Shown here piece after piece: positions 16,001 to 25,530 of a DNA stretch of 64,000 nucleotides. Position 1 is the stretch's first letter; each line of letters begins with the position of its first letter. Source of the DNA: Streptomyces deccanensis (GTDB lineage: Bacteria; Actinomycetota; Actinomycetes; Streptomycetales; Streptomycetaceae); NCBI RefSeq assembly GCF_022385335.1, contig NZ_CP092431.1, positions 2,666,001 to 2,730,000 on the forward strand. Reading direction: 5' to 3'. The notes under the pieces are model-generated. The model did not search any database, was not told where the DNA came from, and saw only the letters and a list, made by a program, of their open reading frames with translations. A program made the translations under genes and the position numbers.

Positions 16001-16729
16001 TCATACGGCCGCCCCGAACAGGCTGCCCAGGGCGTACGTCACACCCGCCGCGGCGCCGCCGAGGGCCAGCTGCCGCAGCCCGCTGAACCACCAGGTTCTG
16101 GCCGTCACCCTGGCCACCACGGCACCGCACCCGAAGAGCCCGACGAGCGCCACCAGCACGGCGGGCCACAGCGCGCTCGCACCGAGCAGATACGGCAGCA
16201 CGGGCAGCAGGGCACCCAGCGCGAACGAGCCGAAGCTCGACACGGCGGCGACGGTGGGCGACGGGAGGTCGCCGGGGTCGATGCCCAGCTCCTCGCGGGC
16301 GTGGATCTCCAGGGCCTGTTCGGGGTCGTGCGAGAGCTGCCGCGCGACCTCCCGGGCGAGCCCCGGCTCGACCCCGCGGCTCTCGTAGAGCGCGGCGAGC
16401 TCCTTCTCCTCGTCCTTGGGATGCTTGCGCAACTCCCGCCGCTCGACGTCGAGTTCGGCCTGGACAAGTTCGCGCTGCGAGGCCACGGAGGTGTACTCGC
16501 CGGCCGCCATGGAGAAGGCGCCGGCCGCGAGCCCGGCCAGCCCGGCGACGACGACCGCCTCCCGCCCGGCCGTTCCACCGGCGACACCGGTCATCAGCGC
16601 CAGGTTGGACACGAGCCCGTCCATCGCCCCGAACACGGCGGGCCGCAGCCAGCCGCCGTTCACGTCCCGATGGGTGTGGTTGTCCCGGTGCGCCTCGTGC
16701 AACGCGGCTTCGGTGTCGATGATCGCCAC
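16001..16729 (-). CDS. VIT1/CCC1-family membrane transporter
   Basis: The 242-aa protein resembles the vacuolar iron/manganese transporter (VIT/CCC1) family. After a His-rich N terminus (EAHRDNHTHRDVNGGW) comes helix one with DGLVSNLALMTGV, then GAFSMAAGEYTSVASQRE, both family signatures. A cytoplasmic acidic/charged segment (about residues 90-155) carries the Glu residues that bind metal in this family, and three C-terminal helices follow. I chose the GTG at 16729 because GAGGAAAGGGG precedes it; an in-frame ATG at 16786 lacks a ribosome site. The probable role is export or storage of Fe2+ or Mn2+; the actual ion is not shown by sequence. It is divergent from the ADP-ribosylglycohydrolase operon. 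Confidence 0.85.
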   Translation of the reverse strand: MAIIDTEAALHEAHRDNHTHRDVNGGWLRPAVFGAMDGLVSNLALMTGVAGGTAGREAVVVAGLAGLAAGAFSMAAGEYTSVASQRELVQAELDVERRELRKHPKDEEKELAALYESRGVEPGLAREVARQLSHDPEQALEIHAREELGIDPGDLPSPTVAAVSSFGSFALGALLPVLPYLLGASALWPAVLVALVGLFGCGAVVARVTARTWWFSGLRQLALGGAAAGVTYALGSLFGAAV

Positions 16730-17018
16730 GATCAAGCCCCTTTCCTCACGTCGAACGTACGCTCGGAAAATCGCTTCTGCCAGCAAGGAAGGCCGTACTT
16801 ACCCAGGCGCTCACCGAGGGCGGCGGCTGTTCGAGAAACGGCCGCCGCTCATTCGTACATGACCCTGCACAGATGTCGACCGGGTGATACACGAGCGTTC
16901 CGCGCGCCGCCGAGGCACCCGATGTGGGAGAGATCTTCCCAGCGAAAGCTGACAAATCTTGAGAGCGGATCAACTGCCCGCCGGGCCGGACCTGCCCATG
17001 GGCCAGAGAGGCGACCGT

Positions 17019-18125
17019 ATGCCTTCCATCGCCTGCATTCCCTCGGTCCCGGCGCCCGGGGGCGCCGCCGACCTCCGCGAGCGGGCACGGGGGGCCATGC
17101 TCGGGCTCGCCGTCGGCGACGCGCTGGGGGCGCCCGCCGAGAACATGAAGCCGTCCGAGATCCGCGCGCGCTGGGGGCGCATCACCGGGTATGTGGCCGA
17201 GAGCCCCTCCGGCACGGACGACACCGAGTACGCGATCTTCTCCGGGCTGCTGCTGGCCCGGCACGGCTCGGCCCTCACCGTCACCCATGTGGAGACGGCC
17301 TGGCACCAGTGGATCGCGGACCTGGACGAGGGCCCGTTCCGGGGCGCCGGCTTCAGCGAACGCGGCACCCTGGAGAACCTCCGCCGGGGCCTCGCCGCGC
17401 CGATCTCCGCGCAGCACCGGCACGCCTGGAGCGACGGCCTGGCCATGCGCGCGGCCCCCTTCGGCGTCTTCGCGGCGGGCCGCCCGGCGGAGGCCGCCCG
17501 GCTGGTCGCCGTCGACGGCTCGGTCAGCCACGACGGCGAGGGCATCTACGGCGGCCAGGCGGTCGCGGCGGGCGTGGCGGCCGCGATGGCGGGGGCGCCG
17601 ACGATCGCGGTCGTGGCCTCCGCGCTCGCCGTGATCCCCGACGACTCCTGGACGGCGCGCTCCCTGCGCCGGGCGGTCGCCGTCGCCCACCGGGGCGAAC
17701 GCGCGGTCCGCTCCGCCGTCGTCATCGGCGGCTACCCCTGGACCGACCTCGCCCCCGAGGCCGTCGCCCTCGCCTTCGGCGCCTACGCGGCGGCCGACGG
17801 CGACTTCACCGAGTCGGTGCTGACCGCGGTGAACATGGGCCGCGACGCCGACACGACCGCCGCGGTCGCCGGCGCGTTGGCCGGCGCGACCCGGGGGGCG
17901 TCGTCGATCCCGGCCGAGTGGGCCGCCGCGATCGGCCCGGCGCGAGGCAGCTGCCTGCCCTCCATGACCGGCCACCACGTCCTGGACGTGGCCGAACTCC
18001 TGGTCCCGACCGAGGGCGGCAAATGGACCACGGGCCCGGCCCTCTTCCCCCACGGCGACCGCCCCCTGCCGCCCCCGACCACCTTCACCCTCGCCCCGGC
18101 CGACCCGACGGAGACCCCCGCATGA
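17019..18125 (+). CDS. ADP-ribosylglycohydrolase family protein 1
   Basis: The 368-aa DraG/ARH-fold protein has canonical metal-site motifs: GLAVGDALG (residues 29-37), GTDDTEYA (65-72) and GRDADTTA near residue 270. Enzymes of this family use two Mg2+ or Mn2+ ions to remove ADP-ribose from proteins, nucleic acids or small molecules; this substrate is unknown. The ATG at 17019 follows a GAGAGG site. It is the first of six overlapping genes: its stop shares ATGA with the next start. Because all binding residues are present, it is probably catalytically active. I cannot name the target. Confidence 0.85.
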   Translation: MPSIACIPSVPAPGGAADLRERARGAMLGLAVGDALGAPAENMKPSEIRARWGRITGYVAESPSGTDDTEYAIFSGLLLARHGSALTVTHVETAWHQWIADLDEGPFRGAGFSERGTLENLRRGLAAPISAQHRHAWSDGLAMRAAPFGVFAAGRPAEAARLVAVDGSVSHDGEGIYGGQAVAAGVAAAMAGAPTIAVVASALAVIPDDSWTARSLRRAVAVAHRGERAVRSAVVIGGYPWTDLAPEAVALAFGAYAAADGDFTESVLTAVNMGRDADTTAAVAGALAGATRGASSIPAEWAAAIGPARGSCLPSMTGHHVLDVAELLVPTEGGKWTTGPALFPHGDRPLPPPTTFTLAPADPTETPA

Positions 18126-19603
18126 CCCCACCGACCCCATGGGACGACACGCCCCCCACGTCCCCCTCGTCACCGTACGAGGAGCCGCCCGCCGGGCCGC
18201 CCATGCTCGACGCCGCGGCTCTCGACCTCGCACCCCCGACCGACTTGCTCGCCCCCGCCCCCACGACCGACCCACCGCTCGCCCCCGAGCGCTTCGCGCC
18301 CGCTCGCCCGGTCTCGGCGAAGCCGCCCACCCACGGAGCCGCGGCCGCCGACGGTGGAGGCGCCCCACAGGGGCCACCCGCACGCGACGACGAAAGCCGC
18401 ACGGGCGGTGCGGGTGGGAAGAACGAAGCGGCCGAAGGCGAAGCCGAGGCCGGCAGGCCCCGCCCCCCGAAGGGCACCCGCATCGAGGGCCTCCTCCTCG
18501 GCCTCGCCGCAGGCGACGCCGCCGGCTGGCCCGCCGCCCGCCACCGCGCCGCCCGCATGCCGGAGTGGACCCGCCGCCTCACCCGCGAGCTGGACACCTT
18601 CGCCGAGCAGAACGCCACCACCACCCTCCCCGTCCCCATCGCCCTCAACCAACCCCCCGAGCCCCTCCGCCTCGGCCCCTCCGACGACGCGGAATGGGCG
18701 GCCTTCGCCGCCGAGGCCCTCCTCCGCGCAGGCGACGCCGCCGCCCTCGGCGACCTCAGCCTGGAACGCCGTACCCGCGCCTCCATCGACCTCTCCTGGA
18801 ACGCCGTGGCCAGCGAGATCGCCGCCGCCGCCGAACGCGCCCCCGAGGTCGAGTCCGCCGTGCTCCCCCTGCGCGCCCGTATCTCCGTACGCGCCGGCCT
18901 CGGCAACCTCGCCACCGGCCTGCGCCCGCCCGCCACCGGCCACGACAACCCGCACTACTTCGACGACGCGGCCTGCGTCCGCGCCTGCGTCCTGGCGGTG
19001 GCCCACCCGGGCGACCCCCGCCGCGCCGCCGACCTCGCCGAGTTCGACGCCCGCTACACCCAGGACGGCGACGGCGTGCACGGCGCCCGCGCGATGGCCG
19101 CGGCGCTCGCGCTGGCGCTCACCGGCGCGGATGTCGACGACTGCGCCGCCGCGGCCCTCGCCGAACTCCCCGCCGAGACGGAGATCGGCCGCAACGCCCG
19201 CCACGCCCTCGACCTCGCCCACCGCCACAAAAAAGAAGGAACATTCGCCCTGGTCCCGCTCCTCGAACACCAGATCGTCGACCATGTCTACAGCTACGGC
19301 ATCGCCGCCGCCGAGACCGTCCCCGTGGCCCTCGCCCTGGCCACCGCCGCCCGCGGCCGGATCGCCGAGGCCGTCCCCGCCGCCGCCTGCCTCTCCCGGG
19401 TCGCCGACTCCGCGCCCGCCCTCGCCGGCGCCCTGACCGGAGCACTCGGCGGCGGCACCGCCATCCCCGACACCTGGCGGGACGCCTGCCGCACCCTCTC
19501 CGGCTGCGCCCTCCCCCGTCTCACCGGCACCGACCTCGTCCACCTCGCCGAACTTCTCGGCACAGCGGAACTCCCCACCCACCCCGGCGTTAGCCGGGCA
19601 TGA
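18122..19603 (+). CDS. ADP-ribosylglycohydrolase family protein 2, degenerate metal site
   Basis: A 493-aa protein. The first 115 residues are low complexity (Pro, Ala, Asp, Glu rich) and probably disordered. The ADP-ribosylglycohydrolase fold then starts at IEGLLLGLAAGDAAGW. The expected T-D-D-T becomes PSDDAEWA. The C-terminal G-R-D-A-D-T is replaced by LSRVADSAPA, losing the first Asp and the last Thr. This suggests weakened, altered or no metal-dependent catalysis, so a structural or regulatory subunit is possible. Both ends overlap neighbours by ATGA. The paralogy with genes 1, 3 and 4 is clear from the domain order. Confidence 0.75.
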   Translation: MTPPTPWDDTPPTSPSSPYEEPPAGPPMLDAAALDLAPPTDLLAPAPTTDPPLAPERFAPARPVSAKPPTHGAAAADGGGAPQGPPARDDESRTGGAGGKNEAAEGEAEAGRPRPPKGTRIEGLLLGLAAGDAAGWPAARHRAARMPEWTRRLTRELDTFAEQNATTTLPVPIALNQPPEPLRLGPSDDAEWAAFAAEALLRAGDAAALGDLSLERRTRASIDLSWNAVASEIAAAAERAPEVESAVLPLRARISVRAGLGNLATGLRPPATGHDNPHYFDDAACVRACVLAVAHPGDPRRAADLAEFDARYTQDGDGVHGARAMAAALALALTGADVDDCAAAALAELPAETEIGRNARHALDLAHRHKKEGTFALVPLLEHQIVDHVYSYGIAAAETVPVALALATAARGRIAEAVPAAACLSRVADSAPALAGALTGALGGGTAIPDTWRDACRTLSGCALPRLTGTDLVHLAELLGTAELPTHPGVSRA

Positions 19604-20802
19604 CGCCCGCATCGCATCCCGCCCCCGCCGCGGCGCCCGCCCCCGCGGCCGCAGCCGCTCCGGACGCCACGCTCGACGAACGCATCACCGGCGCCCTCGT
19701 CGGCGCCGCCGTGGGCGACGCCCTCGGCGGCCCGGTGGAGGGCTACACCCCGGAGCAGATCCTCGAACGTCACGGCGGCCGTGTGCACGGTGTCGTCGGC
19801 CCGTGGAACGGCGACGAGTGGCGCACCGCCCGCCCCATCGCCCCGTACCACAAGGGCGACGGCCACGTCACCGACGACACCTTGATGACCCATGCGCTCG
19901 TCCGGGTGTACGACCGCGTACGCGACCACCTCGACGCGTACGCCGTCGCCGAGCACCTGGTGCCGGACATGATGACCACGCCGCGCTGGATCCCCGAGCT
20001 GGAGGCCGAGGCCCTCCCCCTCCAGCGGGTCTTCCTCGCCGAGAAGTGGCTGGTGGCCCGGATCCACTACGGCCACATCGACCCCCGCGAGGCCGGCACC
20101 GGAAACATCGTCAACTGTGGCGCGGCGATGTACATGGCCCCCGTCGGCCTGGTCAACGCGGCCGACCCGCGCGGCGCGTACGCCGAGGCGCTCGACGTCG
20201 CGGGCGCCCACCAGTCGTCGTACGGCAGGGAGGCGGCGGGCGTGTTCGCGGCGGCGGTCGCCGCGGCGTGCGCGCCGGGCGCGACGGCGGAGTCGGTCGT
20301 CGAGGCCTGCCTCGCCCTGGCGAAGGACGGCACCCGCGCGGCGATCGAGTCGGTGTGCGAAGTGGCCCGCCGTCACACGGACTTCGAGTCCGCGCTGCGG
20401 CCGCTCCGCGAGGCGGTCACCCCGTTCGACACGGTCGGCCCCGACTACCGCGCCCCCTCCCTCGGCGCCCGCCGCCCTTCCCGTCTCCACTCGATCGAGG
20501 AACTCCCCATCGCGCTCGGCATGTTGATCGTGGCCCGCGGCGACTACCGCCACGCGGTGCTGGGTTCGGTGAACTACGGCCGCGACTGCGACTCCATCGC
20601 CACGATGGCCGGCGCCGTCGCCGGCGCGCTGGGCTCGGAGGTCCCGTCCGACTGGGCCAAGACGGTGGCGGAGGCGAGCCGCCTGGACCTGCACGCCCCC
20701 GCCCGGACGTTGACGGACGTCACGCTCCAGATCCACGACCAGGACGTCCGCCGCCGTCGCGCCCACGAGTCCGCCTTCACCGCCCTGGCGCCCGTCCGGT
20801 GA
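19600..20802 (+). CDS. ADP-ribosylglycohydrolase family protein 3
   Basis: The 400-aa protein begins with an Ala/Pro-rich leader of about 25 residues, then GALVGAAVGDALGGPVEGY, HVTDDTLMT, and near the C terminus NYGRDCDSIATMAGAVAGALG. All three metal-binding motifs are intact, so activity is likely. The central part (roughly residues 140-260) is larger than in protein 1. It overlaps gene 2 by ATGA and gene 4 by GTGA. The ligand is unknown; the family also includes enzymes acting on free ADP-ribosyl compounds, so a small-molecule substrate is as plausible as a protein one. Confidence 0.85.
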   Translation: MTPASHPAPAAAPAPAAAAAPDATLDERITGALVGAAVGDALGGPVEGYTPEQILERHGGRVHGVVGPWNGDEWRTARPIAPYHKGDGHVTDDTLMTHALVRVYDRVRDHLDAYAVAEHLVPDMMTTPRWIPELEAEALPLQRVFLAEKWLVARIHYGHIDPREAGTGNIVNCGAAMYMAPVGLVNAADPRGAYAEALDVAGAHQSSYGREAAGVFAAAVAAACAPGATAESVVEACLALAKDGTRAAIESVCEVARRHTDFESALRPLREAVTPFDTVGPDYRAPSLGARRPSRLHSIEELPIALGMLIVARGDYRHAVLGSVNYGRDCDSIATMAGAVAGALGSEVPSDWAKTVAEASRLDLHAPARTLTDVTLQIHDQDVRRRRAHESAFTALAPVR

Positions 20803-22178
20803 CCCCCCTGCGTCTGACCTGGGTGCAGCCCGAGGACCTCCTCGGCCACGAACTCCACCAGGCCCTCCAGGACGGCCGCGAGCCCTCGGCCGTCGCCGCC
20901 CGCTGGCGAGCCGCAGGCGGCCCCCCGGCCCCCCTCCGCGCCGGCGCCTCCCCCCACCGCGCCTCCCGCTACCTCCGCCAACTCGCCGAAGACCTCCTCG
21001 ACGAACTGGCGGACCTGCCGAGCCAGTTGAGCGACGACGAGCCGACGGACCTGCCCAGGATCAAGGCCCTGTGCGGCGACTGGCCCGCACACCCGACCCA
21101 GCCCACCCGCCCCACCTCAACCACCTACGCACCTCGCCTGGAAGCCGCCTGGCTCGGCCGCGCCGCCGGCTGCCTCCTCGGCAAGCCCGTCGAGAAACTC
21201 CCCCTCCCCGCCATCCGCCGACTCGCCGCCGCCACCGGCAACTGGCCCCTCACCACCTGGTTCACCGCCCGGGGCGTCCCCCAGGACCTCCTCGCCGCCC
21301 ACCCCTGGAACCGCCGCTCGGCCCCCACCTCCCTCGCCGAGAACATCGACGGCATGCCCGAGGACGACGACCTCAACTACCCCCTGCTCAACCTCCTCCT
21401 CCTGGCCCGCCACGGCCGGGATTTCACCACCACCGACGTGGCCACCCTCTGGCTCGACGAACTCCCCGCGGGCCGCACCTTCACCGCCGAGCGCGTCGCC
21501 TACCGCAACCTCCTCACCGGCATCGAGCCACCCCACACCGCCCGCCACCGCAACCCGTTCCGCGAATGGATCGGCGCCCTGATCCGCGCCGACGTCCACG
21601 GCTGGACCAACCCCGGCGACCCGGCCGCCGCCGCCGAACAGGCCCACCGGGACGCCACCCTCACCCACACCGCCAACGGCGTCTACGCGGCGATGTTCGT
21701 CGCGGCCACCATCGCCGAGGCGGCCACCGGCACCCACGACATCCACCACTGCCTCCGCACCGGCCTGACGGTCGTCCCCCCGCACTCCCGCCTCGCGAGA
21801 GCGATCCACCACGCTCTTCGACTGGCCACGGAGATCCGGGACTTCGACACGATCGTCGACGAACTCCACGCCACCTACGCCGACCACCACTGGGTCCACG
21901 CCATCCCCAACACCGCCCTGCTCACCGCCGCCCTCACCCACGCGGACGGCGACTACACGGCCGCCATCTGCCGCTCGGTGTCCGGCGGTTGGGACACCGA
22001 CTCCAACGGTGCGACGGCGGGCAGCATCGCGGGCCTCCTCACCGGCTCCCCGACCGCACTCCCCGACCGCTGGACGGCACCCCTCAAGAACCGCCTGGCC
22101 ACCTCGATCGCCGACTTCAACGGCGTCGGCTTCGACACCCTGGCCCACCTCACCCTCCGGGAGACCCCCCACCCATGA
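20799..22178 (+). CDS. ADP-ribosylglycohydrolase family protein 4 with N-terminal extension
   Basis: The 459-aa protein carries about 110 extra N-terminal residues (a hydrophilic, partly helical region with LRQLAEDLLDELADL) before the fold at AWLGRAAGCLLGKPVEKL. The family's G-D in the first motif is here G-C. The second motif reads MPEDDDLNYPLL and the third is SGGWDTDSNGATAGSIAG, a well-preserved version found in a subgroup of the family. Two of three metal motifs therefore look competent. The GTG start and the stop are both within 4-base overlaps. The N-terminal piece has no assignment. Confidence 0.8.
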   Translation: MTPLRLTWVQPEDLLGHELHQALQDGREPSAVAARWRAAGGPPAPLRAGASPHRASRYLRQLAEDLLDELADLPSQLSDDEPTDLPRIKALCGDWPAHPTQPTRPTSTTYAPRLEAAWLGRAAGCLLGKPVEKLPLPAIRRLAAATGNWPLTTWFTARGVPQDLLAAHPWNRRSAPTSLAENIDGMPEDDDLNYPLLNLLLLARHGRDFTTTDVATLWLDELPAGRTFTAERVAYRNLLTGIEPPHTARHRNPFREWIGALIRADVHGWTNPGDPAAAAEQAHRDATLTHTANGVYAAMFVAATIAEAATGTHDIHHCLRTGLTVVPPHSRLARAIHHALRLATEIRDFDTIVDELHATYADHHWVHAIPNTALLTAALTHADGDYTAAICRSVSGGWDTDSNGATAGSIAGLLTGSPTALPDRWTAPLKNRLATSIADFNGVGFDTLAHLTLRETPHP

Positions 22179-23392
22179 CCCAGGCGCCGCCCCCGACCCA
22201 GGCGTACGACCCTCCGCTCGGCCACCTCCGCGTCCTCGACCTCGCCACCCTCTTCGCGGGCCCCCTCGCCGCCACGATGCTCGGCGACTTCGGCGCGGAG
22301 GTCATCAAGGTCGAGCACCCCACGAAACCGGACCCGTCGCGGGGCCACGGCCCGTCGAAGGACGGCGTGGGCCTGTGGTGGAAGCTGCTGGGCCGCAACA
22401 AGCGCACCCTGACGCTGAACCTCTCCACCCCCGGCGGCCGGGACACGCTCCTGCGCCTCGCCGCCACCGCCGATGTGATCATCGAGAACTTCCGCCCCGG
22501 CACCCTCGAGAAATGGGGTCTCGGCTGGAAGGAGCTGTCGGCGGCGAACCCCGGTCTGGTCCTCGCCCGCGTCACCGGCTTCGGCCAGTTCGGCCCGTAC
22601 GCGCACCGCCCCGGCTTCGGCACGCTCGCCGAGGCCATGAGCGGATTCGCCGCGATCACCGGCGAGCCGGACGCCCCACCGGTCCTGCCGCCCTTCGGCC
22701 TGGCCGACTCCATCGCGGGCCTCGCGACGGCGTACGCGGTGATGACGGCGCTCGCCGCGCGTGACCGTACCGGACAGGGGCAGACGGTCGACATGGCGAT
22801 CATCGAGCCGATCCTCACCGTCCTCGGCCCCCAGCCCCTCTGGTACGACCAGCTGGGCCACGTCCAGCCCCGCACGGGCAACCGCTCCGCGAACAACGCG
22901 CCCCGCAACACGTACCGCACGGCGGACGGCTCCTGGGTGGCGGTCTCCACCTCGGCCCAGTCGATCGCGGAACGGGTGATGCGGCTGGTCGGACGGCCCG
23001 AGCTGATCGACGAACCCTGGTTCGGTTCGGGGGCGGAGCGGGCCGGGAACGCGGACGTCCTGGACGAGGCGGTCGGCGCGTGGATCGCCCGCCACACCCG
23101 GGAGGAAGTGATCGAGGCGTTCGAGAAGGCGGAGGCGGCGGTGGCCCCCATCCAGGACGTACGGGAGGTGATGACCGACCCCCAGTACCGCGCCCTGGAC
23201 ACGATCACCACCGTCGACGACCCCGACCTCGGCCCCCTGCGCATGCAGAACGTCCTCTTCCGCCTCTCCGCCACCCCCGGCGCGATCCGCTGGGCGGGCC
23301 GTGCGCACGGCGCCGACACGGACTCGATCCTGACCGAACTGGGCCTGTCCGGCCTGGAGATCGAGACCCTCCGCCGGGAGGGCGCCCTGTGA
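22175..23392 (+). CDS. CaiB/BaiF family (class III) CoA-transferase
   Basis: The 405-aa protein has the family start (LRVLDLATLFAGPLAATMLGDFGAEVIKVE), the NKRTLTLNL strand, IIENFRPGTLEKWGLG, and GQGQTVDMAIIEP, the segment that holds the catalytic acid in class III enzymes. These transfer CoA between carboxylic acids such as formate/oxalate or succinate/citramalate. Here the partner gene encodes a CitE-like lyase, so activation of a hydroxy acid followed by cleavage is a reasonable guess. It overlaps ADP-ribosylglycohydrolase 4 by ATGA and the lyase by GTGA. Confidence 0.85.
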   Translation: MTQAPPPTQAYDPPLGHLRVLDLATLFAGPLAATMLGDFGAEVIKVEHPTKPDPSRGHGPSKDGVGLWWKLLGRNKRTLTLNLSTPGGRDTLLRLAATADVIIENFRPGTLEKWGLGWKELSAANPGLVLARVTGFGQFGPYAHRPGFGTLAEAMSGFAAITGEPDAPPVLPPFGLADSIAGLATAYAVMTALAARDRTGQGQTVDMAIIEPILTVLGPQPLWYDQLGHVQPRTGNRSANNAPRNTYRTADGSWVAVSTSAQSIAERVMRLVGRPELIDEPWFGSGAERAGNADVLDEAVGAWIARHTREEVIEAFEKAEAAVAPIQDVREVMTDPQYRALDTITTVDDPDLGPLRMQNVLFRLSATPGAIRWAGRAHGADTDSILTELGLSGLEIETLRREGAL

Positions 23393-24243
23393 CCCCCCGC
23401 TCGTCCACGTCCTTCCCCCTGACCTGGCTGTACGTCCCCGGCGACCGCCCGGAGGTGGTCACCAAGGCGCTGGCCTCCGGCGCGGAGGTGGTGATCGTGG
23501 ACCTGGAGGACGCGGTCGCCCCCGACCGCAAGGCCTACGCCCGCGCGGCCACCGCCGAACTCCTCTCGACCCCGCCCCCCGTGCCGGTCCACGTACGCGT
23601 CAACGCCCTGGACACCCCGGACGCCGAGGAGGACCTCGAAACCCTCGCCCCGCTCCCCGGCCTGACCGCCCTCCGCCTCCCGAAGATCACGTCCCCCGAC
23701 GAGGTGGCGCGGGTCGCGGAACGAACCGCGCCGGCGGAGGGAGGAGCGGTCGCCCTCTACGCCCTCCTCGAATCGGCGCTCGGCGTGGAACGGGCGTACG
23801 ACATCGCCACCGCGCACCCCGCCCTCCGGGGCATCGCCCTCGGTGAGGCGGATCTCCGCGCCGACCTGGCCGTCAGTGACGACCGGGCCCTCGACTGGCC
23901 ACGTTCCCGGGTGATCCTCGCCGCCCGTGCCGCCGGTCTCCCGTCGCCCGCGCAGTCGATCTACCCGGACACGAGAGATCTGGAGGGCCTGGCGGCCACG
24001 TCGGCGCGCGGGCGCGCGCTCGGGTTTCTGGGCCGTGCCGCGATCCATCCCCGTCAGCTTCCGGTGATCGAACGGGCCTACACCCCAACTCCCCAGGAGG
24101 TGGAGTCGGCCGAGCGGACCCTTCGAGCGGCGACCACCACGGCCGGGGCGCAGGCCCTTCCCGACGGGCGCTTCATCGACCCGGCCGTGGTCGCGGCGGC
24201 GCGCAGGACCCTGACCCTTGCGGCCCGCCCCAGCAGGCTTTGA
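23389..24243 (+). CDS. CitE-like CoA ester lyase (HpcH/HpaI aldolase family)
   Basis: The 284-aa TIM-barrel lyase has VPGDRPEVVTKAL, VDLEDAVAPDRK, HVRVNALDTPDAEEDL, LPKITSPDEV, the ALLES glutamate strand, GEADLRADL and the C-terminal GFLGRAAIHPRQ. These are the Mg2+- and CoA-binding signatures of citrate lyase beta, citramalyl-CoA and malyl-CoA lyases. The other citrate lyase subunits are absent, so a stand-alone citramalyl-CoA or beta-hydroxyacyl-CoA lyase is more likely. It is the last gene of the six-gene unit and ends before the repeat element. Confidence 0.85.
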   Translation: MTPRSSTSFPLTWLYVPGDRPEVVTKALASGAEVVIVDLEDAVAPDRKAYARAATAELLSTPPPVPVHVRVNALDTPDAEEDLETLAPLPGLTALRLPKITSPDEVARVAERTAPAEGGAVALYALLESALGVERAYDIATAHPALRGIALGEADLRADLAVSDDRALDWPRSRVILAARAAGLPSPAQSIYPDTRDLEGLAATSARGRALGFLGRAAIHPRQLPVIERAYTPTPQEVESAERTLRAATTTAGAQALPDGRFIDPAVVAAARRTLTLAARPSRL

Positions 24244-24537
24244 TCGCCCCCGCCGCCCCTACCCGTCCCATCCTCAAGGGGCTGCGCCCCTTCGACCCCC
24301 ACACCTCCGCCCGGTGGGGGCTGGTCGCGCAGTTCCCCGCGCCCCTGAAAAGCAGGGGCTGCGCCCCGTGCTTTTCAGGCCCGCAGGGCCTGTTCTTTTA
24401 GGGGCGCGGGGAACTGCGCGAGAAGCCCCACTCACCCGCACCCACCCACCGCCCCCAGTCACCCCCGAACCAAAAACCCACCCGCCCCCGAAGGGACAGG
24501 TGGGTAGGCACCACAGCAACCGAACCAACAGCGGCGG
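24244..24537. other. Intergenic region between CitE-like gene and lgt
   Basis: These 294 bases separate two convergent genes. They contain the palindromic element at 24317-24429 and otherwise only C-rich sequence with no recognisable gene. The element probably also ends transcription from both sides. Confidence 0.6.
24317..24429. repeat. Palindromic intergenic element, copy A
   Basis: Outer arms of 30 bases (24317-24346 and 24400-24429) are inverted copies with two mismatches. They enclose a smaller hairpin with GAAAAGCA/TGCTTTTC arms and a GGCCCGCAGGGCC-type palindrome. A second copy is at 45041-45156. The outer arms and flanks of the two copies lie the same way round, but the inner part is reversed. 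Arms of this kind (GGGGCGCGGGGAACTGCGCG) are frequent between Streptomyces genes. Confidence 0.8.
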
Positions 24538-25530
24538 TCAGCTCTTCTCCGCCGACTCGGGCTCCTTCTTCACGCCCCCAGCGCCGGAAGCCCCCGCGTC
24601 CTTCTTCTCCTCGGCATCAGCCTCGGCCGAAGACTCCTCCGACTTCGACTCCGACTCCGGCTCCGCGTCACCGGCCACGACAGCGGACGCGCCCTCGTCC
24701 CCGTCACCGTCGGAGACACCCGGCTCGACGATCTCCTCCCGCCCCGGCCGCTTGCGGGCCGACAGGACGAGGTAGATCACGGCGAGGACGAAGACCAGCA
24801 GCGCGGTCCAGTTGTTGAGGCGCAGGCCGAGGATGTGGTGGGCCTCGTCGACCCGCATGTACTCGATCCAGAACCGCCCCGCGCAGTACGCGGCGACGTA
24901 CAGCGCGAACGCCCGCCCGTGCCCGAGCTTGAACCGGCGGTCCGCCCAGATGACGAGGAGCGCGACGCCGATGCACCACAGCGACTCGTAGAGGAAGGTC
25001 GGGTGGTACGTGCCCGGCAGCCGGCCGTCCGTGGAGGACGTGATCTCCACGGCCCACGGCAGATCCGTCGGCTTGCCGTACAGCTCCTGGTTGAACCAGT
25101 TGCCCCAGCGCCCGATCGCCTGGGCGAGGGCGATCCCGGGCGCGACGGCGTCGGCGTACGCGGGCAGCGGGATGCCCCGCCGACGGCAGCCGATCCACGC
25201 GCCCACCGCGCCGAGGGCGATCGCGCCCCAGATGCCGAGGCCGCCCTCCCAGACCTTGAAGGCGTCCACCCAGTCACGGCCCTCGCTGAAGTACAGCTCG
25301 TAGTCCGTGATCACGTGGTAGAGCCGCCCGCCGATGAGGCCGAAGGGCACGGCCCAGACGGCGATGTCGGCGACCGTGCCGGCCCGTCCGCCCCGCGCGA
25401 CCCAGCGTTTGTTGCCGAGCCAGACGGCTACGAAGACACCGATGATGATGCAGAAGGCGTAGCCGCGCAGCGGGACGGGACCGAGGTACAGCACCCCGCG
25501 CGACGGGCTGGGAATGTAGGCAAGTTCCAT
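24538..25530 (-). CDS. lgt: Phosphatidylglycerol-prolipoprotein diacylglyceryl transferase
   Basis: The 330-aa membrane enzyme moves a diacylglyceryl group from phosphatidylglycerol to the lipobox cysteine of prolipoproteins. The family signature GRWGNWFNQELYG is at residues 140-152, and about seven membrane helices run to residue 260. The remaining 70 residues form an acidic, Glu/Ser/Ala/Lys-rich tail typical of actinobacterial Lgt and not needed for the fold. Start ATG at 25530. A lipoprotein substrate candidate lies at 56627-57277. It stands upstream of the convergent repeat. Confidence 0.95.
   Translation of the reverse strand: MELAYIPSPSRGVLYLGPVPLRGYAFCIIIGVFVAVWLGNKRWVARGGRAGTVADIAVWAVPFGLIGGRLYHVITDYELYFSEGRDWVDAFKVWEGGLGIWGAIALGAVGAWIGCRRRGIPLPAYADAVAPGIALAQAIGRWGNWFNQELYGKPTDLPWAVEITSSTDGRLPGTYHPTFLYESLWCIGVALLVIWADRRFKLGHGRAFALYVAAYCAGRFWIEYMRVDEAHHILGLRLNNWTALLVFVLAVIYLVLSARKRPGREEIVEPGVSDGDGDEGASAVVAGDAEPESESKSEESSAEADAEEKKDAGASGAGGVKKEPESAEKS

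Follow-up and report, generated by a model that had tools for sequence, protein, structure and literature searches.

What might four proteins of the ADP-ribosylglycohydrolase (ARH) fold do together with a CoA-transferase and a CitE-like lyase? The window, which is the whole 64-kb stretch of DNA analyzed, contains such a set, in which six genes (g1–g6) lie on the + strand at 17019–24243 and, according to the ORF coordinates, form one overlapping set. On balance, g1–g6 probably supply the core enzymes of an operon that would degrade an imported ribose conjugate, predicted to be a hydroxy-acid riboside; this core has apparently lost the repressor, ribokinase, and importer found beside it in related actinomycetes.

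Organization and linkage of the six genes

The features of the locus are as follows.

17019..18125, + strand: g1, ARH-fold hydrolase, 368 aa (PF03747, E 3.3e-58)
18122..19603, + strand: g2, ARH-fold protein with a long N-terminal extension, 493 aa (PF03747, E 1.7e-35, residues 123-450)
19600..20802, + strand: g3, ARH-fold hydrolase, 400 aa (PF03747, E 1.5e-47)
20799..22178, + strand: g4, ARH-fold hydrolase, 459 aa, GTG start (PF03747, E 3.9e-50)
22175..23392, + strand: g5, class III (CaiB/BaiF) CoA-transferase, 405 aa (PF02515, E 5.5e-122)
23389..24243, + strand: g6, CitE/RipC-like acyl-CoA lyase, 284 aa, GTG start (PF03328 HpcH/HpaI, E 9.1e-35)
24317..24429, no strand: large inverted repeat with 34-nt arms and hairpins, 3′ of g6 (consensus matches only)

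The preliminary description held that the six genes are coupled by 4-base ATGA/GTGA overlaps, and all five consecutive junctions from g1/g2 through g5/g6 (ATGA, ATGA, GTGA, ATGA, and GTGA) were confirmed in the sequence, with the starts of g1–g6 within the overlaps taken as annotated in the ORF listing. In a consensus scan of 16700–24600, terminator-like hairpins on the + strand were found only 3′ of g6, and the inverted repeat is a possible transcript end after g6. No sigma-70-like promoter was detected in the same region by consensus, which misses some Streptomyces promoters and therefore bears only in part on the separate promoters that, according to the preliminary description, would refute a single set.

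Because 4-base overlaps are frequent in Streptomyces operons, the gene order kept in relatives is stronger evidence against chance than the overlaps alone. Among 80 Streptomyces loci fetched by g4, the best 80 of 578 confirmed stretches in a contig scan, the g1–g6 order was kept in 73, and the other 7 reach the end of the sequence. In 36 of these best 80 of 578 loci, a kinase gene is present between g4 and g5. Larger clusters were found in 26 other actinomycete loci. The linkage of g1–g6 is real, and the six genes travel together, as had been claimed.

Metal motifs of the ARH-fold proteins and families of the CoA enzymes

The earlier assignment of four ARH paralogues, a CoA-transferase, and a CitE-like lyase was borne out by Pfam (PF03747 four times, PF02515, and PF03328). 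The PF03747 scores of g1–g4 were 198.1, 123.5, 163.1, and 171.6 bits, respectively, all above the gathering cut-off of 26.2. The four proteins are mutually divergent, with approximately 26–34% identity over the longer pairwise BLASTP alignments and only short matches between g2 and g3. In NCBIfam, the equivalog cut-offs for DraG (TIGR02662, 337.05 bits) and Tri1 (NF041672, 490 bits) were not reached, the best scores being 80.5 and 45.9 bits, respectively, both for g1.

Known ARH-fold hydrolases target ribosyl bonds, and the x-D-D and D-x-D-T/S motifs of the family bind metal. Both motifs are present in g1, g3, and g4. For g1, they read GTDDTE and GRDADTT, both align with DraG (2woe), and both are kept in 100 of the 101 matches labelled g1, the remaining one (L157) being a mislabelled g4. 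For g3 (VTDDTLM and GRDCDSI), T-D-D-T and D-x-D-S are found in 109/109 matches. For g4 (PEDDDLN and GWDTDSN), D-D-D is found in 115/115 matches and D-x-D in all 113 displayed; this protein also carries an N-terminal extension of approximately 100 aa that is conserved in the alignment of its relatives.

For g2, the second motif reads RVADSAP and lacks the first Asp, opposite which Val is placed in a weak alignment with ARH3 (2qty, E 0.033). The first Asp of D-x-D is likewise absent in 103 of 105 matches to g2, the other 2 being gaps, and the D-D of the first motif is retained in all listed matches except one. This loss of a metal ligand would be compatible with a hetero-oligomer of ARH paralogues.

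For g5, the PF02515 (CoA-transferase III) score was 407.9 bits (cut-off 23.3), and the nearest NCBIfam model, succinate-glutarate CoA-transferase (NF052585), scored 238 bits, under its equivalog cut-off of 750. For g6, the nearest model was RipC (NF038242), and both this score (155.2 versus 375 bits) and that for CitE (TIGR01588, 143.8 versus 443.4 bits) were under the equivalog cut-offs; its structural relatives in the PDB are 3qll, 8khl, and 6aq4.

Larger clusters in other actinomycetes and what the window genome keeps

In the larger clusters, where genes were identified by tblastn or Pfam rather than by a simple gene finder that gives spurious wrong-strand calls in GC-rich DNA, the order is lacI-permease-permease-SBP-g1-g2-g3-g4-kinase-(amylase/FGE)-g5-g6. 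Across the 26 non-Streptomyces loci, g3 and g4 were found in all 26, g5 and g6 in 24, lacI in 24, the SBP of the sugar-ABC importer in 24, a ribokinase-like kinase in 22, and a fusion of an amylase barrel with FGE in 16. The relatives thus carry a repressor, an importer, and a sugar kinase beside the enzymes, the combination by which a carbohydrate operon is recognized. The palindrome GKAAACGTTTMC is located at the start of lacI in 25 of 27 lacI-bearing clusters.

Three cluster kinases were scanned against the ribokinase equivalog TIGR02152 (cut-off 299.65 bits); that of the Streptomyces locus L159 scored above it (308.6 bits), and those of L048 and L142 just under it (298.2 and 295.7 bits, respectively). 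For the LacI of L048, the nearest model was RbsR, with a score far below the cut-off. Ribose models were the best for the cluster kinases and for the two LacIs scanned. The cluster binding protein is MalE-type, and the RbsB model was not among its matches. In modelling, the first half of the fusion protein resembled alpha-amylases; the L048 protein matches a Jiangella alkaliphila record at 100% identity. Close relatives of the fusion are numerous (1972 matches, with the surroundings inspected for a minority), which counts against the pathway proposed below. The genera among the 120 protein matches listed include Jiangella, Haloactinopolyspora, Phytoactinopolyspora, Actinoallomurus, and Nocardiopsis; as the best 80 of 578 stretches in the contig scan were all from Streptomyces, names for the other lineages come from these protein matches.

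In the window, no repressor, importer, or sugar kinase was found beside g1–g6. The same genome contains, approximately 5.4 Mb from g1–g6, an orphan permease-permease-SBP set related to the cluster importer, the SBP of which scored 410 bits versus 71 for the next match; the nearest kinase of the window strain shows 45% identity to the cluster kinase. The palindrome GKAAACGTTTMC was found neither in the window nor around this orphan importer. Among 199 Streptomyces genomes, 110 contain both a close g3 and a close SBP relative, 40 only g3, 25 only the SBP, and 24 neither (counted by eye; Fisher p 0.005, kinship ignored). The orphan importer thus tracks g3 loosely in Streptomyces.

Proposed pathway, alternatives, and known systems

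The LacI repressor, sugar-ABC importer, and ribokinase-like kinase of the relatives indicate the catabolism of an imported riboside. The carbohydrate ABC transporter, which adjoins the enzymes in relatives and has its orphan counterpart in the window genome, would import the conjugate. The ribosyl bond or bonds would then be hydrolyzed by g1, g3, and g4 via their two-metal motifs, with g2, which lacks one metal ligand, being a likely partner subunit or a changed enzyme. The ribose would be phosphorylated by ribokinase, encoded within the cluster in many relatives; the window strain would have to use a different kinase for this step. Hydrolysis would expose the hydroxyl of the acid aglycone, g5 would load the acid with CoA, and g6, judging from the RipC/CitE and CaiB families, would perform a retro-Claisen cut of the beta-hydroxyacyl-CoA to yield acetyl-CoA, or a similar product, and a keto acid. 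In lacI-bearing clusters, the palindrome would be the target of LacI. The wider clusters agree with the earlier suggestion that a glycosidic bond is cleaved and that the acid set free is then activated and split.

A further-reaching proposal, which we put forward only tentatively, is that these ARH-fold enzymes (three with two-metal sites and one conserved metal-site variant) are metabolic ribosidases whose substrates are beta-hydroxy dicarboxylic acids bearing O- or N-linked ribose, the ribose passing to ribokinase and the acid being CoA-activated and split, and that they constitute a major actinomycete ARH branch unrelated to ADP-ribosylation. The analysis turned up no naturally occurring beta-hydroxy-acid riboside, which counts against the pathway. 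Methanopterin is an alpha-riboside that contains 2-hydroxyglutarate; it was rejected as the substrate because its hydroxyl is misplaced for a CitE-type cut and the cluster lacks a phosphodiesterase gene. Alpha-ribazole was discarded as well, since CoA chemistry would not be needed for its aglycone.

The released aglycone need not be the acid on which g5 and g6 act. They may instead be a carboxylate-degrading module for another acid, co-regulated with riboside salvage by g1–g4, a reading we consider somewhat unlikely. A g5-g6 pair is found without adjoining ARH genes in L181-L189, beside DctM transporter, RraA-like, MmgE/PrpD, and Asp/Glu racemase or cyclase genes, that is, carboxylate-type neighbors, and in L054 and L059, g1-g2 lie beside LacI and sugar-ABC-type matches without adjoining g3, g5, or g6. 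In contrast, 44 of the 52 g6 matches of at least 190 bits across 296 genomes were located with ARH genes (counted by eye, with the 190-bit cut chosen after seeing the results), so that the test set by the preliminary description, whether the hydrolases and the CoA genes are usually apart, turned out in its favor. Moreover, g5-g6 stay in the operon in all of the best 80 of 578 Streptomyces loci despite the missing importer and repressor, and g4 and g5 share a 4-base overlap in the window. The sugar might also be other than ribose, with a suitable cis-diol and a shifted specificity of the kinase, which appears rather doubtful. The kinase scores hovering around the TIGR02152 cut-off, the amylase-fold partner in 16/26 loci, and the MalE-like binding protein would fit this, whereas the action of known ARH-fold hydrolases on ribosyl bonds and the ribose models found best for the kinases and two LacIs argue for ribose. 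An unlikely alternative is that the stripped Streptomyces operon has been redirected to a substrate arising within the cell, for instance a damaged nucleoside or cofactor, and that the window copy serves housekeeping salvage and not a food pathway. Repressor and importer matches were absent from all of the best 80 of 578 Streptomyces loci, the palindrome was not found within 600 bases 5′ of g1 in the 73 of these that contain g1, and a close g3 is present in 150/199 Streptomyces genomes, 40 of them without a close SBP relative. Conversely, 110 of these 150 do have such a relative, and the Streptomyces loci L176-L179 keep the lacI-importer front part in the cluster, two of them with the kinase as well.

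Judging by gene order, we take SCO2028 and SCO2030 of S. coelicolor to be the equivalents of g1 and g3; SCO2028-SCO2031, between gltB and lgt/trpA, are very likely the same ARH genes as g1–g4. ARH-family genes of Streptomyces have been counted in print as candidate ADP-ribosylation erasers. The proposal, raised as one option in the preliminary description, that g1–g4 remove ADP-ribosyl groups from proteins or nucleic acids and in this way control a small CoA pathway is consistent with their PF03747 membership and with two papers, which list SCO2028-SCO2031 as uncharacterized DraG/ARH homologues, among eight (PMC9411070), and SCO2028-SCO2030 as DraG/ARH homologues (PMC5087735). We nevertheless consider it very improbable. 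The DraG and Tri1 cut-offs were missed, no ADP-ribosyltransferase family was matched among the cluster genes scanned by Pfam, and activity on U-alpha-ADPr was not detectable for either SCO2028 or SCO2030 in the excerpt of PMC13036486, where it is the sole substrate reported for them. The importer, repressor, and likely ribokinase in related clusters make a pathway remnant likely, rather than ADP-ribosylation reversal; the earlier suggestion of an ADP-ribosyl substrate, or of control by modification, is disfavored by these genes and by the U-alpha-ADPr result. If four of the eight S. coelicolor ARHs listed in the excerpt of PMC9411070 are indeed sugar-conjugate enzymes, the count of erasers and the notion of a large ADP-ribosylation system would need revision.

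No account of this cluster was found in a limited literature search. The excerpts of PMC9411070 and PMC5087735 treat these SCO genes singly and are silent on the operon, on g5 and g6, and on the larger clusters; "SCO2028" in the excerpt of PMC5036795 is a primer or plasmid label in a passage concerning SCO2038, not the ARH gene. An independent case is the staphylococcal trio of ARH, permease, and ribokinase (SERP2216-2218 and SCC copies), described in excerpts of PMC3637587, PMC3900703, and PMC3321955, in which, as in the larger clusters, an ARH-fold gene adjoins a transporter and a ribokinase. The trio differs in having one ARH, a cytosine/purine-type permease, and no CoA-transferase or lyase, and its function is not given in those excerpts.

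The larger clusters share the LacI-family repressor, ABC importer, and ribokinase-like kinase with ribose (rbs) operons containing RbsR and RbsK, but have a MalE-type binding protein, extra ARH hydrolases, and CoA genes; the window lacks any rbs-like part. Itaconate/citramalate degradation (RipC/Ccl) shares the CoA-transferase and the CitE-like lyase, and g6 is nearest RipC, whereas g6 is under the RipC cut-off, no hydratase is present among the six genes, and ARHs are joined. The Bacteroides rus loci likewise scavenge ribose from conjugates with ribokinases, and differ in their SusCD importer and nucleoside hydrolase. The larger clusters would provide a direct way to the substrate, as ligands could be screened against each of three products: the binding protein, the kinase, and the repressor, for which the palindrome is defined.

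Partial relatives were also observed. In L056, a g4 relative lies beside a nucleoside hydrolase, a sugar-isomerase-like gene, and an SBP; this neighborhood, like that of g1-g2 in L054 and L059, speaks for the riboside pathway. Two other cases count against it. L046 has neither the kinase nor g1 or g2, and the identity of its g6 is only 30%. In the genome G121, the kinase and g5 are absent from the 1850 bases available 3′ of g4, and the g5-g6 pair is located on a separate contig.

Composition and conservation of the six-gene operon

The six genes g1–g6 form a real, conserved operon; their placing in the preliminary description was confirmed, and the 4-base overlaps are real at all five junctions.

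17019..24243, plus strand: four ADP-ribosylglycohydrolase (ARH) paralogues (g1–g4), a CoA-transferase (g5) and a CitE/RipC-like lyase (g6)
24317-24429: inverted repeat after g6, with 34-nt arms, 45 nt spacing and nested hairpins, which looks like a dispersed repeat or a terminator

In the Pfam scan, g1–g4 matched PF03747, g5 was assigned to the class III CoA-transferases, and g6 to the HpcH/HpaI-type lyases, and in the NCBIfam scan none of the six genes reached a cut-off. The window's genome, a 10.1 Mb Streptomyces chromosome, contains ten PF03747 matches, four of which are g1–g4.

A scan with the g4 alignment gave 578 confirmed stretches, the best 80 of which, all from Streptomyces, were analyzed; the frequency of g4 cannot be read from these loci, because g4 was their selection criterion. 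The g1-to-g6 order was kept on one strand in 73 of these best 80, and in the other seven the first gene match starts within 76 bases of the sequence start, leaving no room for g1. In 36 of the best 80 loci, g4 and g5 are separated by a ribokinase-like gene, and no LacI, permease, binding-protein or fusion-protein match (E 1e-8) was found in their fetched DNA. In a separate sample, 150 of 199 Streptomyces genomes had a close g3 at E 1e-100 or below (counted by eye from the table). At least nine Streptomyces genomes carry a relative of the sugar-binding protein (SBP) of an ABC importer about 4 kb from g3. Four of these, fetched as illustrations that carry no frequency (L176–L179), all have lacI, two permeases and the SBP upstream of g1, with the kinase in two and the fusion gene in none.

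A larger cluster with importer and kinase genes

A g4 match was present in 59 of 296 genomes of the class. Wide regions were fetched from the 26 non-Streptomyces genomes with an orthologue-like g4, including L057, where the match is partial and sits at the end of a contig; weaker g4 relatives (L049–L052, L056, L058 and L059) were also fetched and are excluded from the counts of cluster members. The usual layout is lacI (24/26), two BPD_transp_1 permeases (24/26 and 22/26), SBP_bac_1 (24/26), g1 (23/26), g2 (24/26), g3 (26/26), g4 (26/26), a PfkB-type kinase (22/26), the fusion gene (16/26), g5 (24/26) and g6 (24/26). The front is absent in L043 and L156, and the rear in L057, because the DNA ends there. 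The second permease was also unmatched by tblastn in L044 and L046, for which Pfam found one BPD_transp_1 gene besides the tblastn match and two such genes, respectively.

The true exceptions are L046, L044 and L141. L046 carries g3-g4 without g1-g2, lacks the kinase between g4 and the fusion gene, and has a g6 of just 30% identity. The L044 genes run g5-g6-lacI-permeases-SBP-g3-g4-g1-g2, with no kinase in the available sequence, 1103 bases of which remain after the gene set. In L141, neither kinase nor g5 was found in the 1850 bases 3' of g4; the g5-g6 pair of this genome sits on another contig (L184), adjoining a gene apparently similar to the DctM-type gene of another locus, L182. Conversely, g1-g2 stand beside LacI and sugar-ABC-type matches without the remaining cluster genes in L053, L054 and L059, the last of which additionally carries its weaker g4 relative.

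Three cluster kinases were scanned against the ribokinase model TIGR02152 (cut-off, 299.65 bits): that of L159 scored over it (308.6), whereas those of L048, a Jiangella-like locus, and L142 fell just under (298.2 and 295.7). For the LacI proteins of L048 and L044, RbsR models were the nearest, with scores far under the cut-offs of those models. The palindrome GKAAACGTTTMC occurs between -400 and +60 bases relative to where the LacI tblastn match begins in 25 of 27 clusters with lacI, and was not found there in L046 and L144. The 27 comprise 23 non-Streptomyces clusters, the filter having dropped L057, and 4 from Streptomyces. Exact sites numbered 38 in 517,799 bases of lacI-bearing loci; no site occurs in the window or within 600 bases 5' of g1 in the 73 Streptomyces loci with g1 (from the best 80 of 578).

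The N-terminal half of the fusion protein has an alpha-amylase-like fold and its C-terminal part is EgtB/FGE-like. Its close relatives gave 1972 matches, and outside the cluster the surroundings were viewed in one. This relative (L175 9338-11194; 44% identical) has a MocA-type oxidoreductase as its scanned neighbor and adjoins an apparent family 3 glycosidase gene.

In the window's genome, the SBP of L048 has its best relative at C1:8055486-8056712 (410 bits; runner-up, 71), preceded by two permease relatives. Among the 199 Streptomyces genomes (E 1e-100; counted by eye), 110 carry g3 and the SBP, 40 g3 alone, 25 the SBP alone and 24 neither (Fisher odds ratio 2.64, p 0.005, kinship uncontrolled). 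The 25 SBP-only genomes suggest additional uses or a longer persistence of the importer. No close copy of the cluster kinase was found in the window's genome, where the best match is 45% identical.

The CoA pair apart from the hydrolases

The nearest kin of g6 are RipC-like lyases, and those of g5 a broad range of class III transferases. Weak g6 relatives are widespread (259/296 genomes). At 190 bits or more, a cut set post hoc that excludes L044 and L046 although they are cluster members, 44 of 52 g6 matches were located with ARH genes (counted by eye); this outcome favors the preliminary description, which hydrolases and CoA genes usually standing apart would have refuted. The eight matches away from ARH genes are those of G071, G131:C400, G153, G121:C11, G217:C30, G022, G037 and G031; in G037, relatives of g1 and g2 lie on the same contig at a distance of about 9 kb. 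A g5 relative adjoins g6 in six of these eight loci, and is some kilobases distant in L185 and L187; a ninth locus just under the cut, L188, was also fetched.

The scanned neighbors of g5-g6 in such loci include DctM, RraA-like, MmgE/PrpD, Asp/Glu racemase, arylmalonate-decarboxylase-like, cyclase, isochorismatase, PEP-mutase-like, FAD and amidohydrolase genes. These neighbor families would point to small dicarboxylates. At L181 8449-19489, g5-g6 relatives share a stretch with cyclase, isochorismatase, PEP-mutase-like and arylmalonate-decarboxylase-like genes and may belong to a distinct pathway for carboxylates.

Metal motifs and the role of the hydrolases

In alignments of tblastn matches, g1 retained T/S-D-D-T and D-x-D-T in 100 of 101 matches, and g3 retained T-D-D-T and D-x-D-S in all 109. 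The deviant g1 match was rejected as g1, being a g4, as in the 296-genome table, mislabeled via the overlap filter. For g4, including weaker relatives, D-D-D was present in all 115 matches and D-x-D in at least 113, in one of these followed by Cys. In g2, D-D was kept in all listed matches except one, and the first Asp of D-x-D was absent in 103 of 105 matches, the remaining two being gaps. The motifs of g1 aligned clearly with DraG, and those of g2 weakly with ARH3; we take these motifs to have the metal role known from DraG/ARH structures.

The preliminary description had also raised control by ADP-ribosylation; the gene neighborhoods favor the catabolism of an imported riboside instead. For this catabolic reading, the sugar is probably ribose, the acid may be the aglycone, and g2 might conceivably be a partner subunit. 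By gene order, g1–g4 presumably correspond to SCO2028-2031. The S. coelicolor ARH genes stand as uncharacterized in the lists of PMC9411070 and PMC5087735, and PMC13036486 gives U-alpha-ADPr activity as undetectable for SCO2028 and SCO2030. In staphylococci, an ARH gene has a cytosine/purine-type permease and a ribokinase as neighbors according to PMC3637587, PMC3900703 and PMC3321955, an independent case of the ARH–ribokinase pairing of the larger clusters. No published account of the g1–g6 cluster was found in the literature searched, which mostly lay outside subscription papers.

g4 has a conserved N-terminal extension of about 100 amino acids (residues 1-104; window 20799-21110) with no Pfam match. 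Second Streptomyces copies of g4, about 45-48% identical, show similarity only from residues 99-113 onward. A second g4-like ARH without the extension is at L058 9560-10582 (C1:8483059-8484117 of the window's genome). In two Streptomyces (L049 and L058), such an ARH is separated by some kilobases from a weak g6 match and from apparent genes for MaoC and further acyl-CoA enzymes. Another g4-like ARH belongs to a sugar island (L056 5309-13937) that also carries a sugar-binding protein and nucleoside hydrolase, PhyH, xylose-isomerase-like and MocA genes.
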